Shown here: positions 1 through 32,798 of the stretch, in pieces
Layout: every line of letters begins with the position of its first letter
Position numbering within the stretch: position 1 is the first letter of the stretch
From: Acidobacteriota bacterium
GTDB lineage: Bacteria > Acidobacteriota > Terriglobia > Bryobacterales > Bryobacteraceae
Direction of reading: 5' to 3'
Assembly: GCA_026394015.1 (NCBI GenBank)
Contig: JAPKZA010000276.1
Span: 1 to 40,462, forward strand
Length of the DNA: 40,462 nt
Made by a program: the position numbers and the translations under genes
Notes under the pieces: model-generated
What the model saw: only the letters and a program-made list of their open reading frames with translations
Database searches by the model: none
Told to the model about the DNA's origin: nothing

Positions 1-157
1 CTCTTGCGTTGGCGCTGTCCAATGCTTACTTCGACTCGCTCGGGATTCCGAGCCTAACTGGCGGGCAATAGCTCAACCCGCCGAACCGCCGGATGCGGAC
101 CCGCATGTCCGGTGGTGTGGGAGGGGAGGAGCCGCGAGGCTCCTCCCTATCCCGATT
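1..157 (+). mobile_element. Group II intron, 3' end (ribozyme domains 5 and 6)
   Basis: The window opens inside a group II intron. Domain 5 can be folded from 85 to 116: a 9-bp stem (85-93 with 108-116), a two-base bulge (TG at 106-107), a 4-bp upper stem (94-97 with 102-105) and a four-base loop GACC (98-101). Domain 6 follows: GGGA 119-122 pairs with TCCC 150-153, and a 10-bp stem (124-133 with 138-147) is capped by GCGA. A bulged A at 149 is the likely branch point. The intron should end near 154-157 (GATT). The end of its reverse transcriptase gene lies just upstream. The element stops about 17 bases from the stop codon of the oppositely oriented TonB receptor gene. The 5' end lies outside the window, so intactness cannot be judged. 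The D5 loop is not a GNRA loop. Confidence 0.82.
3..71 (+). CDS. Group II intron reverse transcriptase/maturase, C-terminal end (partial)
   Basis: Only the last 22 codons are present, ending in TAG at 69-71; the 5' part is outside the window. The visible tail contains SNAYFDSLGIPSL, which matches the usual end of intron-encoded proteins (Ser-Asn, an aromatic residue, then a Gly-(Leu/Ile)-(Pro)-Ser-Leu motif). Ribozyme domains 5 and 6 begin 13 bases after the stop, which is the normal arrangement for an intron whose ORF sits in domain 4. The fragment alone would be too short to identify; the adjoining ribozyme structure makes the call. The full protein would have reverse-transcriptase and maturase domains and help the intron splice and retrohome. 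Confidence 0.7.
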   Translation, partial: LALALSNAYFDSLGIPSLTGGQ

Positions 158-27394: not shown

Positions 27395-27898
27395 ATGAGT
27401 ATGAAGTCGACTTCACCTTCGGAGCCGCGCCGCGGTTTTCTCGTCGCCTCGATTACCGGCTTGATGGGTATCATCTCCGCCGCCCTTGCCCTGCCCACGG
27501 CCGGCTATCTTCTCGGTGGCTCCAAGCATAAACGTCCGGCCGACTGGGTCGCCGCCGGCGACATCGCGAAATTGGAACCCAACGTCCCCGAACAGATCGT
27601 TTTTGAAAGGGTTCGGCGTGACGGTTGGAAAACCGTAAAGGAAAAAGCCAGCGCCTGGATGATCAAGACCGGCGAAAAAGAAGTGGTCGCCTACTCACCT
27701 GTCTGCACCCATCTCGGCTGCGCCGTCAGTTGGGACGGTGCCGCGAAGAATTTCGCCTGCCCTTGCCATACCTCCAGTTTCGGCACCGACGGCAAAGTGC
27801 TCGCCGGGCCCGCGCCCCGCGCGCTCGACCGGTTCGACATCAAGATCGACGGCACGACCATCCTCCTCGGCGAAATTCGCCAGTCTGACAAGGCCTAG
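27395..27898 (+). CDS. Rieske iron-sulfur protein of a cytochrome bc-type complex
   Basis: A 167-residue protein with a TAT-like N-terminal anchor (RRGFLVASITG, membrane helix at about 18-40). The Rieske cluster ligands are C104 and H106 in CTHLGC and C122 and H125 in CPCHTSSF; C109 and C124 form the usual disulfide pair. GPAPRALDRF is the family's proline loop. It passes electrons from quinol to a c-type heme. The cytochrome b gene begins three bases after its stop, so the two encode one complex. Two ATGs (27395 and 27401) are in frame; a TATACT box-like element directly before them hints at a short or absent leader, but this is weak. Confidence 0.93.
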   Translation: MSMKSTSPSEPRRGFLVASITGLMGIISAALALPTAGYLLGGSKHKRPADWVAAGDIAKLEPNVPEQIVFERVRRDGWKTVKEKASAWMIKTGEKEVVAYSPVCTHLGCAVSWDGAAKNFACPCHTSSFGTDGKVLAGPAPRALDRFDIKIDGTTILLGEIRQSDKA

Positions 27899-27900
27899 TC

Positions 27901-29478
27901 ATGATCAAATCCGCCCGAGCCTGGATTGAGGACCGCACCGGCCTCGAATCCGGCATCAACCACTTCCTGAATGAAGACATCCCCGCTTCCAGCGGTTGGC
28001 ACCAGGTCTTCGGCAGCATCGCGATGTTCCTGTTCATGGTCCAGGTGTTCACCGGCATCATGCTCGCGATGAACTATGCGCCGACGACGAGTGAGGCGCA
28101 TAGCAGCCTGCGGTACATTCTTACCGAACTCACGGCCGGACGGCTCATGCGCGGTCTCCATCATTGGGGCGCCAGCATGATGATCTGCATCGTCGTCCTC
28201 CACATGCTGCAGGTCTTTCTGTGGGGTGCTTACAAGAAGCCCCGCGAGGCCACGTGGATGCTGGGGGTGGTTCTGCTGCTGTTGACGCTCGGCTTCGGGC
28301 TCACGGGCTATTTACTGCCGTGGGACAACCGGGCGTATTGGGGCACCGTGGTGACCACCCAGATCGCCGCCAAAGCCCCCGGGATGGGCCCTTATATTCT
28401 GACGCTGCTCGGCAGTCAGGACGGCCAGATTGGGGCGGTCACGTTTGCCCGCTTCTACGGTGCCCACGTGCTGATTCTTCCCGCGGTCACCGCGCTACTG
28501 ATCTTCCTCCACGTCTACCTCGTGCGCCGCCACGGCGTCGCGCCCGCCCCGGTGGAAACGGCCCCGCCGATCAAGTTCTACCCCCGTCAGGTCTTTAAGG
28601 ACACGGTGGCCATTTTCGTTACCTTCGCGGTTCTGTTTTCGCTGGCCGTGGCGGTTCGCGTCCCACTGGGCAAACTTGCCGATCCGACCGACGTCTCCTT
28701 CATCCCGCGTCCCGAGTGGTACTTTCTTTTTCTGTTTGAGCTGTTGAAGTATTTCGAAGGTCCGCTGGAGATCGTCGGTAGCATGGTGCTGCCGGGCATC
28801 GCCGTGATGCTGCTTTTCCTGACGCCGTTTATCGACCGCGGCAAGGCGATTCGCCTTCGTCAGCGCACCGGGGCGATTGGCGTCCTGCTGCTGGCTGTGA
28901 TTGGCTGGGGAGGGCTCACCGCGGCGGCGCTGACGTCAACCCCGCATCGCGACGCCTGGAAGGGTTTTTCGGCTGAAGAGATGGCGGCCGTGGGCAATTT
29001 TCGCCGCGCCGATTGTTGGAAGTGCCACGCCTCGAGCCCCGGTGAATCCCGCCCCGGGCCGAACCTGGCGGATATCGCCGTCCTGCGAGATCGCGATTGG
29101 CTCGTGAAGCACTTCAAGGATTCCAGCGGCGAAGCAGGACGCGGAATTCGTGACATCCAATGGAAGCAACTCGCCACGTTTCTGCCCAAGTTGGATGACG
29201 ACAACGTCGCCAGCCTCCACGCCATTCCCCAGTCCCTCGTCGCCGGGGCGCTCGTCTATCAACAGAATAACTGCGGCGCCTGCCATTTCATCAATGGCGT
29301 CGGCATGAAGACCGGACCGCCGTTGAATGGCGTCGCCAAACGTTGGGACCGCAAGTGGATGGAAGAGCACTTCGTGGATCCTGATAGCAAATCGCCCGGC
29401 ACCATCATGCCGGCCTACAAATTCTCCCCTGCCGACATGACCGCGATCCTGGATTATATGATGTATCTCACTGAATGA
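27901..29478 (+). CDS. Cytochrome b fused to a C-terminal diheme cytochrome c domain
   Basis: A 525-residue quinol-oxidising subunit. The b-heme ligands are H87/H101 and H189/H204. The 13- and 14-residue spacings follow the b6 pattern, while the Qo motif is PEWY (271-274) as in bc1-type proteins. After the eighth helix an extra hydrophobic segment (GAIGVLLLAVIGWGGL) leads to a periplasmic part with two heme-c motifs, CWKCH (372-376) and CGACH (458-462). A likely Met ligand for the second heme lies in TIMPAYKF; none is obvious for the first. The fused domain probably replaces cytochrome c1, as no c1 gene is nearby. The Rieske gene is directly upstream and the ECF sigma gene overlaps by ATGA downstream. 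Confidence 0.93.
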   Translation: MIKSARAWIEDRTGLESGINHFLNEDIPASSGWHQVFGSIAMFLFMVQVFTGIMLAMNYAPTTSEAHSSLRYILTELTAGRLMRGLHHWGASMMICIVVLHMLQVFLWGAYKKPREATWMLGVVLLLLTLGFGLTGYLLPWDNRAYWGTVVTTQIAAKAPGMGPYILTLLGSQDGQIGAVTFARFYGAHVLILPAVTALLIFLHVYLVRRHGVAPAPVETAPPIKFYPRQVFKDTVAIFVTFAVLFSLAVAVRVPLGKLADPTDVSFIPRPEWYFLFLFELLKYFEGPLEIVGSMVLPGIAVMLLFLTPFIDRGKAIRLRQRTGAIGVLLLAVIGWGGLTAAALTSTPHRDAWKGFSAEEMAAVGNFRRADCWKCHASSPGESRPGPNLADIAVLRDRDWLVKHFKDSSGEAGRGIRDIQWKQLATFLPKLDDDNVASLHAIPQSLVAGALVYQQNNCGACHFINGVGMKTGPPLNGVAKRWDRKWMEEHFVDPDSKSPGTIMPAYKFSPADMTAILDYMMYLTE

Positions 29479-30104
29479 ATGCATCCGATCACCCAGTGAG
29501 CCGCGTAACCGGAAGTGACCTGACGCCCCATCGTGAATGGAATCCCCTGATCAGCCAGATCGCCACCGGGGACTCCACCGCGCTTTCTGAACTTCATGCG
29601 CAGGCGGAGCGTTTTGTGACAACGATTGTGGCCCGGGTGGTGCGCAATGAGGCGGAAACGGAAGAGGTCGTCAACGACGTCTTCCAACAGGTGTGGAAGT
29701 TGGCGAAACATTATGACCCTGTCCGCTGCAATGCGCACTCCTGGATCGCGATGATGGCGCGCAGTCGGGCCCTGGACCGCTGGCGGACGGTCGCCTCGCG
29801 CACGCGTCTCGTTGAAACCCAGGAGCACCTGCCCGAACATCCCACCGCCCCGGCCAGCAGCCCGGAGAATCTCGCGGTCGATCGGGAGAGGCGCCGCTCC
29901 ATCCGCTCCTCGCTGGAGCAGTTGCCGGCCGAGCAGCGCGAAGCCATCCAACTTACCTTCTTCGAAGGGCTGAGTCACGCCGATGTCGCTGAAAAGTCCG
30001 GCCTCCCGCTCGGCACCGTGAAAACCCGGATCCGCCTCGGCCTGCTAAAATTGCGCGAGCAGTTGCCGCAGCATGGCGCGATCGCCGAAGGAGCCGCGAA
30101 TTGA
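29475..30104 (+). CDS. ECF-type sigma-70 factor
   Basis: A 209-residue extracytoplasmic-function sigma factor. Region 2 is seen in ALSELHAQAERFVTTIVARVVRNEAETEEVVNDVF-like sequence (EEVVNDVFQQVWK, SWIAMMARSRALDRWR). Region 4 is near the end, with QLPAEQREAIQLTFFEGLSHADVA and the recognition helix GLPLGTVKTRIRLGL. It should direct RNA polymerase to a small stress regulon. The ATG overlaps the cytochrome b stop (ATGA), so it belongs to the respiratory operon, and its own TGA overlaps the TTG start of the cupin protein, its likely anti-sigma factor. This resembles the RpoE-ChrR pair that senses singlet oxygen or related stress. Confidence 0.94.
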   Translation: MNASDHPVSRVTGSDLTPHREWNPLISQIATGDSTALSELHAQAERFVTTIVARVVRNEAETEEVVNDVFQQVWKLAKHYDPVRCNAHSWIAMMARSRALDRWRTVASRTRLVETQEHLPEHPTAPASSPENLAVDRERRRSIRSSLEQLPAEQREAIQLTFFEGLSHADVAEKSGLPLGTVKTRIRLGLLKLREQLPQHGAIAEGAAN

Positions 30105-30604
30105 ACCCAGAATCCATCCGCGAACAGGCGCTGCTCTACGCCTCCGGGGAACTGAGCCCGGAAGAGCGCGACGCCTTTGAAGCGCTGCTGGCCGCCGGTG
30201 ACCCGATCGCCACGGCCGAAGCTGAGGCGTTTCTCGATATTGCCGAAGCGCTGCTGCCGCCCGCACCGCCGCCGCCCGGCTTCCGGGTCCTGCGCCAAAC
30301 CCAGAACCAAGCCCGCCCCACGCCTTACCCCGGGGTCACCGTCGAAGTGCTCCATCTCGATCGCAAGGCCCGCACCGTGACGACCATCCTCGCCCTCGAG
30401 CCAGGGGCTGAGTACCCATCCCATCGGCATTCGATTGCCGAACAATGTCTCGTGCTTTCGGGCGATGTATGGTCGGGCTCGCTCGAGCTTACCGCCGGGG
30501 ACTTTCAGGTCGCCGCTCCCGGGTCAACCCACAACGTCATCAGCACCCGCGGCGGATGCCGTCTCCTGATGATCTCCGGCATCCACGACGAAATTCTGGC
30601 CTAG
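30101..30604 (+). CDS. ChrR-like anti-sigma factor with C-terminal cupin
   Basis: A 167-residue protein beginning with TTG (30101) that shares bases with the sigma factor stop. The N-terminal 50 residues (REQALLYASGELSPEERDAFEALL) match the helical anti-sigma domain, but the zinc-binding H-x3-C-x2-C motif of ChrR is absent. The C-terminal half is a cupin with SHRHSIAEQCLVLSGDVW and GSTHNV, giving candidate metal ligands His, His, Glu and His. By analogy with ChrR it would hold the sigma factor inactive until the cupin senses oxidants. The TTG start is inferred from the coupling; no ATG fits. It converges on the DUF3179 gene with a four-base overlap. Confidence 0.82.
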   Translation: MNPESIREQALLYASGELSPEERDAFEALLAAGDPIATAEAEAFLDIAEALLPPAPPPPGFRVLRQTQNQARPTPYPGVTVEVLHLDRKARTVTTILALEPGAEYPSHRHSIAEQCLVLSGDVWSGSLELTAGDFQVAAPGSTHNVISTRGGCRLLMISGIHDEILA

Positions 30605-31728
30605 CGCTGGAAAACGGTCGTGTCGGGATGATACCGCTGCCAGTCGAACCAGTAGTCCTTCAGCATCGGAACCGGCTTCAAACAGCGACCTTCTGCCGTG
30701 CAGCCGCGGAAATTCCACGTCGACCCGGTTGCGGCATCGATCAGAACGCCCGTCTCCGGCTGGCGATAGAAGTCGGAGTCCACGGCGAACGCCCGCACCG
30801 AGCGGCCATCCGGCCCCACGACGAGCATCACGCCCTGGTCCAGCACCAGCTTTTCGGCGAGCACCCGGTCGACAGGATAGGCGCGGCTCCGGCCGCCGTG
30901 GGTCAGGCCGAAGAGCAACTCCCGCGGTGGGCGTCCGGTCGCGGTGGTGTCCACCACGGTCCGCATGCGGCCCATGGCCTTCTCCCAGTCTTTATCCTCG
31001 TACTGATTCGCGCTGGCGGCCACGGGCTTTAACACGGTCCCATCCGGGTGCTCCTGCCGCCACAGCCCAAAGCTTAACTCGTCGCTGTGGACGAGTTCCA
31101 ACTGCCGGCCCTTCAGCGGACCGGAGACGGCGAGGCCGCTGATCTGTTGCCAAAACGAACCCGTCTCTTCATCCCGCATCAGAAAATTCTGGTTGTTGAT
31201 GCCGGCCAGATGGAACGTTAGCGGGCGTCCATCCATCTCCCTTTTCCACACGAGACCCGTGTGACATAGCGTTCAATAAGTGACCACCACCGGCGACCCG
31301 GCCACCCAGTCATTGGCGATGTGATGGTAGCCCATCATGCGAATCGGGTAAGCGCGGGAGGTGGGCCCGAAGGTCACCGCCAGCACCATGTCGTCGGCGT
31401 CGACCTGCGCCTGGCTCGCCGGCAGGTTGCCGAGCGAGTCGATCGGCCGGAACATGCGTTCGAAAATGTTAATCTGCCCCGCGGCCGCGAACGCGGCGGT
31501 CAGCAGCGGCAACACGACCGCTGCCTTGTGGATCCGACTCCAAAAACGAACCAGCAGCGCGACGCTAGCCACGGCACAGGCAATGGCCAACATCGGCCCC
31601 CAGGCGCGGACGACCAGGGCGATGGCTAGCTCCGTCGCGCCCTGCGCCCGAAACGGTCGGATCACGTACATCGGATACGCCACGCAGCCGAAGGCCACCG
31701 CCGTCATCAGTGCCAACCACCGGATCAT
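30601..31728 (-). CDS. DUF3179 membrane protein, candidate selenoprotein (Sec152 encoded by in-frame TGA)
   Basis: Read through one TGA (31273-31275), this is a 375-residue protein. Three hydrophobic helices lie at about 4-24, 43-61 and 69-84. A DUF3179 domain follows: SRAYPIRMMGYHHIANDWVAGSP, then VVTY-U-TLCHTGLVW, later SGLAVSGPLKG and the C-terminal DTTVF. In DUF3179 proteins this site normally reads TYCxLC, so TGA stands exactly at the first Cys of a CxxC pair, giving U152-x-x-C155. The frame is identical on both sides and both halves are clearly one domain. A SECIS-like hairpin follows 15 bases after the TGA. DUF3179 has no established function; a redox role is inferred. The ATG overlaps the stop of the serine hydrolase gene (31725-31728). 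Confidence 0.8.
31241..31275 (-). promoter_or_regulatory. Bacterial SECIS element candidate following the in-frame UGA
   Basis: On the minus strand, 9 bases after the TGA (31273-31275), CACACG (31263-31258) pairs with CGTGTG (31252-31247). The five-base loop GGTCT (31257-31253) sits on this perfect 6-bp stem. A seventh G-T pair and further interrupted pairing extend the stem down to 31269/31241. The GGUCU loop is the same as in the E. coli fdhF SECIS, where the loop G and U are read by SelB. The distance from UGA to loop, 15 bases, is at the short end of the range known for bacterial SECIS elements. Confidence 0.75.
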
Positions 31729-32798
31729 TTGCCTACCGCCGCCTGCTGAAACGCCATCCGTACGGGCGAATCGTCGGAGTTCGCAAAGCCCGCTCGCTGC
31801 ACCATCAGCAAGAGCGTCACGCCCTTGGTCGGGTCGATCCAGGCCTGGGTTCCATACGCGCCGCCGTGGCCATGCGACCCCGGGCTGAGCATCGCGGTCA
31901 CGCCCTGGGGCTCGCGGACAATGCACCAGGTCAGTCCCCAGCCGTGCCCCGGGGTGAACCCGGTTTTCAGGTCGCCCGATTGCAGCGTGGTCATCTGCCG
32001 CACCGACTCCGGCTTCAAGTACCGCTTGCCGTCGAGCGTCCCTTGGTTCAAAATCATCCGCTGGAAGCGCACGTAGTCCGAGGCGGTGGAGAACAGTCCG
32101 CCATTGGCGGCCGGAAACGGCTCCGGGTCAAAGCCCACCGGCAGCTTGGCGGCCACCAGCTTGCCACTGCTCTTGTCGCGTTGCACGGGGGCGACCAACC
32201 GGGTCTTCTGTTTTGCCGACGGAAAAAATGTCGTATCTTTCATGCCGAGCGGCTTGAACAGGCGCTTGGCGAGGAACTTGTCGAAGGGCATGCCGGAGGC
32301 GACTTCGACCAGGTGCCCGAGGGTGTTGATGCCGGATTGGCAGTACTTCCACTGGCTGCCGGTGGGAAACTGCAACGGCTTGCTGAGGTAGGCCGGGATC
32401 AGGTCGCCGAGCTTGCGGGCGGCGGCCCACTCGGCGGGGGTGGCTTCGGCCAGCCCGGACGAATGCGTCATCAGGTGCTTGATCGTGATTGCGGGGTACT
32501 TCGAAAAGGCCGGGATGTGCTTGGCGACGGGGTCGTCGACGGAGAGCTTACCCGCTTCCTGCAGCATCAAAATCGCAGTGCCGGCGACCGGCTTGGTCAT
32601 CGAGGCGATCCAAAAAATTGAGTCGGTCTTGACGTTTCCGATGGCGGCAAGGTGGGTGACGCCGGTTCGGGTGGCGATGGCCGTGACGGCACCGGGAACC
32701 TCCTGCGCGTCGATCATCTTCTGCATGGCGGCGGCGATGGCCGCGTCCTGGCCGAGCAGCGTGAGCGGAGTGATGAGAAAAGCGAGCAAAAGGCGCAT
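31725..32798 (-). CDS. Serine hydrolase, class C beta-lactamase/esterase family
   Basis: A 357-residue secreted enzyme with a signal peptide (MRLLLAFLITPLTLLGQ). The nucleophile motif S-x-x-K is SMTK at 66-69. The second motif, usually Y-S-N, is YCQ at 152-154 in KYCQSGINTLG. The third, H-G-G, lies in SHGHGGAYGTQ. Such proteins include EstB-like esterases and D-aminopeptidases and are rarely true beta-lactamases. The Asn-to-Gln change in the second motif may alter specificity. The DUF3179 gene begins within its stop codon (ATGA), so both are translated from one minus-strand message. It is divergent from the deoxyhypusine-synthase-like gene, with only 25 bases between the two start codons. Confidence 0.88.
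   Translation of the reverse strand: MRLLLAFLITPLTLLGQDAAIAAAMQKMIDAQEVPGAVTAIATRTGVTHLAAIGNVKTDSIFWIASMTKPVAGTAILMLQEAGKLSVDDPVAKHIPAFSKYPAITIKHLMTHSSGLAEATPAEWAAARKLGDLIPAYLSKPLQFPTGSQWKYCQSGINTLGHLVEVASGMPFDKFLAKRLFKPLGMKDTTFFPSAKQKTRLVAPVQRDKSSGKLVAAKLPVGFDPEPFPAANGGLFSTASDYVRFQRMILNQGTLDGKRYLKPESVRQMTTLQSGDLKTGFTPGHGWGLTWCIVREPQGVTAMLSPGSHGHGGAYGTQAWIDPTKGVTLLLMVQRAGFANSDDSPVRMAFQQAAVGK

Follow-up and report, generated by a model that had tools for sequence, protein, structure and literature searches.

The window, a 40,462-nucleotide stretch of DNA from a Bryobacteraceae member of the Acidobacteriota, encodes on its minus strand (30601 to 31728) a DUF3179 protein of 375 residues in which the single in-frame TGA, codon 152 (31273 to 31275), very probably directs the incorporation of selenocysteine (Sec), as judged from comparative sequence evidence. 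We take the gene product to be a genuine selenoprotein from an already listed family, and the Sec-dominated clade described below is new relative to the literature that we found. Annotation would split this gene or label it a pseudogene; it now stands as a well-supported selenoprotein. The reading that we favour, and regard as likely, is that of a membrane-anchored, probably extracytoplasmic selenol/thiol redox protein. Added here are the Sec-dominated clade, AhpD-like neighbouring genes, an internal duplication and a Rieske-like structural model; the AhpD-like selenoprotein neighbours and the Rieske-like model provide testable ideas on the function of DUF3179. The selenoprotein is frequent in Bryobacteraceae-type Acidobacteria, which live mostly in soil, and isolates exist in which selenium could be tested for directly.

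A DUF3179 gene with an in-frame TGA and its relatives

Read from 31728 down to 30601, the frame comprises 375 residues followed by a TAG stop (30601 to 30603), and its only internal stop is the TGA of codon 152, in the context VVVTY-TGA-TLCHTGLVW with Cys155 downstream. In the genome search, the PF11376 profile matched this frame at E 1.2e-52 with one TGA inside the match, and after read-through the score was 186.8 bits (cut-off 27) over residues 105 to 370, which places the protein in DUF3179. The sequence-only reading had taken two frames separated by a single TGA as one full DUF3179 gene; the frame reading and the profile match agree on this. NCBIfam gave no match to the protein at E up to 1. 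When the gene is compared with its sister L009, dN/dS is 0.10 before the TGA and 0.087 after it; by this measure, purifying selection persists downstream of the TGA. The gene immediately upstream on the same strand, encoding a serine hydrolase of the beta-lactamase family (31725 to 32798), stops in an ATGA overlap with the DUF3179 start. Because this neighbour terminates with TGA, the codon is also an ordinary stop in the source genome.

DUF3179 is present in 11 of the 19 genomes of the genus and in 73 of the 200 genomes of the taxonomic family. Among the 86 matches listed for these 200 genomes, 54 contain exactly one in-frame stop, a TGA, while one contains TAA, none contains TAG and 31 are stop-free, a pattern that goes beyond chance. 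We read 53 of the 54 single-TGA frames (nine of the 86 listed matches lie outside the set, among them G171:C52, which has a TGA). The TGA occupies an identical column in every DUF3179 frame read, directly before x-x-C. Locus L118, which has a run of N after the motif, was dropped from codon counts, and the alignments do not include L081, the locus with TAA.

A further search of named records, using peptide patterns derived from the Sec-rich subfamily, yielded 80 loci from 86 confirmed. Sec is present at the column in 67 and Cys in 13 (11 recognised by pattern and 2 by eye), a split that describes the subfamily rather than all of DUF3179 because the search patterns came from the former. The named loci include four Edaphobacter isolates (Cys), six Nannocystis isolates of the Myxococcota (Sec) and Bryobacterales isolate F-183 (Sec), and on the tree the distribution of the two forms in the subfamily amounts to two changes of state. 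In total, 74 distinct Sec loci span two phyla and include isolates and a record titled as a complete genome. The placement of the TGA at the family's Cys column is therefore borne out by relatives, and the search for TGA-containing homologues at this column, proposed with the sequence-only reading, returned 74 of them. On these alignments, the Acidobacteria/Nannocystis subfamily of DUF3179 typically has Sec, and Cys occurs only exceptionally.

Two further DUF3179 subfamilies also have a TGA in the same column, within ATF-U-VVC (L011, L014; G005, G006) and TW-U-xYC (L076, L079), respectively; L011 and the window protein share 23% identity. Other DUF3179 copies do not have the full pair, with SxxS in L117 (G196), SxxC in L060 and L061, and RxxC in L012. 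Copies of this type are possibly non-catalytic paralogues.

The sequence-only reading had presented DUF3179 as a previously unrecognised selenoprotein family. This does not hold, since the selenoprotein tables of both PMC9312934 and PMC13188914 already list DUF3179 with UxxC/T. The former credits the DUF3179 selenoproteins to its reference 63, Zhang and Gladyshev 2007, the title of which, as entered there, names the deltaproteobacterial symbiont of Olavius. The reviewed proteins and the window protein have the Pfam family (PF11376) and the UxxC motif in common; they differ in that the clade described here comes from Acidobacteria and Nannocystis and has Sec at 67 of the 80 named loci, and in that the window protein has three membrane helices. 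Selenoproteins in Acidobacteria are reported in PMC1794560, and the passages of PMC12013277 that contain the DUF term use it three times, each for DUF523. Beyond the two selenoprotein reviews, the DUF3179 literature found comprises an Idiomarina genome paper.

Decoding of the TGA codon

The source genome (G000) contains SelB (354 bits, above the cut-off), SelA (454 bits), SelD (353 bits, with one TGA of its own) and tRNA-Sec (74 bits; anticodon TCA according to ARAGORN), so that all four of the components for which the sequence-only reading had proposed a search, selA, selB, selC and selD, were found. SelB scores above the cut-off in 15 of the 19 genus genomes and is found at E 1e-70 in 166 of the 200 family genomes. 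Across 50 genomes covering 50 of the 80 named loci, SelB is above the cut-off in 36 of 37 Sec-form genomes versus 2 of 13 Cys-form genomes. The sole Sec-form genome with SelB below this threshold (G247) does have tRNA-Sec, and SelA and SelD are present in G029, apparently the same genome given the identical place of the tRNA. For the Cys-form genomes, tRNA-Sec was detected at E 1e-8 in 3 of 13, one of them a weak match at 50.2 bits. As far as these genomes indicate, the association between SelB and Sec rests mostly on one Cys clade of 13. Genome G153 (genus code g24) combines a full-length SelB with a Cys-type DUF3179 and gave no tRNA-Sec match at E 1e-8.

A putative SECIS element follows the TGA immediately. 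It is a hairpin at 31246 to 31264 (minus strand) with a 7-bp stem and the apical loop GGUCU, which has G in its first two positions and starts 15 nt after the TGA; the 45 nt following the TGA fold with an MFE of -11.1 kcal/mol. Compared with the bacterial SECIS model as given in PMC13188914, the element agrees in its position just after the UGA, its 7-bp stem, its 5-nt loop beginning with GG and an MFE below -7.5. It differs in that the loop lies at 15 nt, one short of the 16 to 37 nt given there for the UGA-to-loop spacing, and in that the DUF3179 loop GGTCT is invariant over 74 loci.

Indications for this element come from codon usage and base pairing. The loop letters GGTCT are found in all 74 distinct Sec loci and in none of the 14 Cys loci, and the codons GGT (74/74), CAC (73/74) and GTG (72/74) are nearly fixed in the Sec loci. 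Effective codon numbers in the Sec loci are 1.0 to 1.6 at codons -1, +1 and +4 to +8, with 2.1 at +2 and 1.8 at +3, and range from 1.4 to 4.9 at other near-invariant residues; in the 14 Cys loci, codon use is relaxed across the stretch that is frozen in the Sec loci. The pair that closes the loop is C-G in 65 Sec loci, U-A in 4, G-C in 3 and G-G in 2. Compensatory synonymous double changes account for ACC..CTG becoming ACG..CTC in the window's clade (G-C, 3 loci) and for ACT..CTA in four of the six Nannocystis (U-A), and in the two G-G exceptions, L173 and L197, the hairpin is shifted by 5 nt with the GGUCU loop retained. Folding energies relative to synonymous shuffles give a weak signal (mean z of -0.87 for the 74 Sec loci and +0.26 for the 14 Cys loci), so the SECIS argument is based on the codons and pairs. 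Directly around the TGA (31270 to 31278), the preceding codon is TAT in 73 of the 74 Sec loci, while the following one is ACG in 70 of them; both lie outside the upper stem.

Since a SECIS-type hairpin directly follows the UGA and SelA, SelB, SelD and tRNA-Sec are present, SelB would bring Sec-tRNA to codon 152. The proposal of Sec at this codon within a UxxC motif thus comes out strongly supported at the level of sequence, by the machinery, the SECIS element, the synonymous freeze, the covariation and the Cys relatives.

Other readings of the TGA have to be weighed against this. One is that the gene is a pseudogene or an assembly error, with the TGA due to nonsense mutation or to misreading of the codon. 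This could draw on the near relative L008, from a genome that is 58% complete, where a TAG is present besides the TGA. However, the same TGA occurs in 74 distinct loci of two phyla, isolates included, with purifying selection after it, and we consider this reading refuted by conservation, with a probability that is close to nil as far as the alignments tell. Decoding of TGA as another amino acid through a changed code merits just as little weight: no supporting evidence was found for it, the adjacent gene terminates with TGA, and the TGAs at the Cys column come with a SECIS-type hairpin and, in the genome, Sec machinery. When selenium is scarce, Sec is inserted inefficiently, which would fit a programmed termination in which the TGA mainly ends translation, giving a membrane protein of 151 residues with Sec read-through as a minor or selenium-regulated event. 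We hold this to be improbable given the purifying selection after the TGA and the fact that Cys forms produce the region in full, and Sec incorporation at codon 152 remains the preferred reading.

Domain architecture and predicted fold

An AlphaFold2 model built from 59 sequences (mean pLDDT 96.8, pTM 0.92) has three long N-terminal helices (residues 2 to 22, 31 to 61 and 68 to 83) followed by two similar beta-domains. Model, hydropathy and loop charge together point to three membrane helices over residues 2 to 83 or so (31480 to 31725, minus strand), and the earlier assignment of the protein to the membrane is in line with the model and hydropathy. Averaged over 37 rows, the second loop contains 4.1 K+R and the first loop 1.7, which suggests that the N-terminus is inside and the C-terminus outside. 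The DUF3179 domain is thus likely to lie outside the cytoplasm, and some other DUF3179 subfamilies start with stretches that by eye resemble signal peptides. The three helices would hold the protein in the inner membrane with the DUF3179 region on the outer side.

The two beta-domains correspond to residues 96 to 235 (copy 1; 31024 to 31443) and 262 to 375 (copy 2; 30604 to 30945), both on the minus strand. Because the profiles of the two copies match each other (hhalign Prob 99.65, E 3.6e-25), the DUF3179 region represents an internal tandem duplication. In the alignment of 59 rows, Cys/Sec152, Cys155 and His135 each reach at least 90% conservation, and copy 2, although homologous, has no counterpart of the UxxC pair. 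Copy 1 alone would therefore carry the near-invariant His135 and Sec152-x-x-Cys155, and the latter two would most likely form and break a selenenylsulfide. The protein would in that case be a selenol/thiol oxidoreductase anchored in the membrane. On sequence grounds, a redox role of the UxxC pair is reasonably probable.

When the full-length model was compared with the PDB, the highest probabilities were obtained for Rieske domains (2qpz, 0.93; 5cxm, 0.90). With copy 1 modelled alone (pLDDT 94.8), the best 31 of the 50 matches listed are Rieske ferredoxins, Rieske oxygenases and NirD-type proteins, among them 3gce (probability 1.00, 3.2 Å over 78 columns) and 5cxm (3.0 Å, TM 0.61 to the target), all with Foldseek E-values of 0.05 or worse. 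Carbazole dioxygenase, IadD/E and the NirD-type proteins among the matches carry Rieske folds.

Profile comparison with 24 Rieske sequences gave Prob 0.2 for copy 1 and 3.4 for copy 2, the PF00355 profile did not match the window protein, and a search of solved structures by sequence returned two matches for the whole protein (E 0.22 and 0.59) and none for the domain profile. Homology to Rieske proteins is thus not supported at the sequence level, as the profile comparisons fail. A weak local alignment of copy 1 sets UxxC on the first Rieske motif, in a register different from the one based on spacing, by which the window protein and L206, a Rieske protein encoded in the source genome, share by eye the pattern Y-x7-H-x16-C-x2-(H or C). 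The Rieske ligand motifs CxH and CxxH are absent from the window protein, which at best offers His135, Sec152 and Cys155. DUF3179 thus resembles Rieske iron-sulfur domains (PF00355) in predicted fold but differs from them in having neither the CxH/CxxH ligand set nor profile similarity, and we treat the modelled Rieske-like fold as a lead, not as membership. No paper linking DUF3179 with Rieske proteins was found in a literature search that was limited for the combination of selenoprotein and Rieske.

The fold matches raise the question of whether UxxC and His135 could bind metal within a scaffold of Rieske type, as a mononuclear site or an altered cluster, with selenium tuning the metal centre rather than entering a selenenylsulfide. 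Rieske-type proteins as the best 31 of 50 listed fold matches, full-length model probabilities of up to 0.93 and the spacing shared with L206 are compatible with this; the Foldseek E-values of 0.05 or worse, the Rieske profile Prob of 0.2 and 3.4, the different register of the copy 1 alignment and the absence of one Cys ligand of CxH argue against it, and we consider such a site unlikely. A broader scenario sees DUF3179 as a tandem protein of Rieske fold whose iron-sulfur ligands have been lost, with one ligand Cys now part of the CxxC/UxxC pair and Sec at the old cluster site, positioned on the outer membrane face and tied to AhpD-like selenoproteins. We regard this as speculative and rather doubtful; if true, an electron-transfer fold would have become a thiol/selenol (or single-metal) enzyme. 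The selenol/thiol redox protein is the reading we retain.

Gene neighbourhood

The sequence-only reading had the DUF3179 protein translated together with the secreted serine hydrolase. The ATGA overlap fits this, but tblastn found the hydrolase neighbour in just 5 of 160 loci (L120 among them), from three genomes that are all of the window's clade, so the partnership is not a general link. Clustering of conserved neighbours with a codon-position score identified none in more than 9 of 80 loci, besides two clusters formed by the DUF3179 gene.

A targeted search detected an AhpD-like gene (PF02627) within 1.3 kb in 11 of the 74 distinct Sec loci, 60 of which have full 1.3 kb flanks on both sides, and no match in this range in the other 63. 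The encoded protein has CxxUxxxH in ten cases (L071, L082, L100, L108, L121, L130 and the Nannocystis loci L183, L188, L189 and L194) and CxxC in one (L077); in L082 and L121 the gene runs in the other direction, and a TAG is additionally present in the copy of L082. Only L088 among the 14 Cys loci has AhpD-like genes nearby, all of the CxxC type. Genome-wide, the AhpD-like query gives 0 to 8 matches per genome (22 genome handles, some being duplicate entries for one genome), so chance nearness should be rare. In the source genome, the sole AhpD-like match, with a TGA, lies on another contig (C530).

The selenoprotein listing in PMC13188914 includes AhpD-like/CMD proteins with CxxU; what is seen here, relative to those, is the location of CxxU genes within 1.3 kb of 10 of 74 DUF3179 Sec loci. 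AhpD-like PF02627 is a Pfam family different from DUF3179 and hence a possible partner, not a relative. By eye, the AhpD-like proteins inspected lack a signal peptide; this fits poorly with a DUF3179 domain outside the cytoplasm. A link of DUF3179 to AhpD-like chemistry is proposed only tentatively; if it exists, the protein might act in peroxide or thiol stress alongside the AhpD-like selenoproteins whose genes are nearby in some relatives. The earlier designation of DUF3179 as a thiol/selenol redox protein is plausible from sequence, with the nearby CxxU genes in its favour and the copies that miss one or both positions against it.

On the other side of the DUF3179 gene, and convergent with it, an ECF sigma factor is followed by a ChrR-type cupin (29475 to 30604); within the 160 loci this pair is confined to the window's clade, barring one weak sigma match in L129. 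Beyond it lie a Rieske protein and then a cytochrome b to which a cytochrome c domain is fused (27395 to 29478), and near the start of the window (84 to 156) there is a group II intron match of 45.9 bits.
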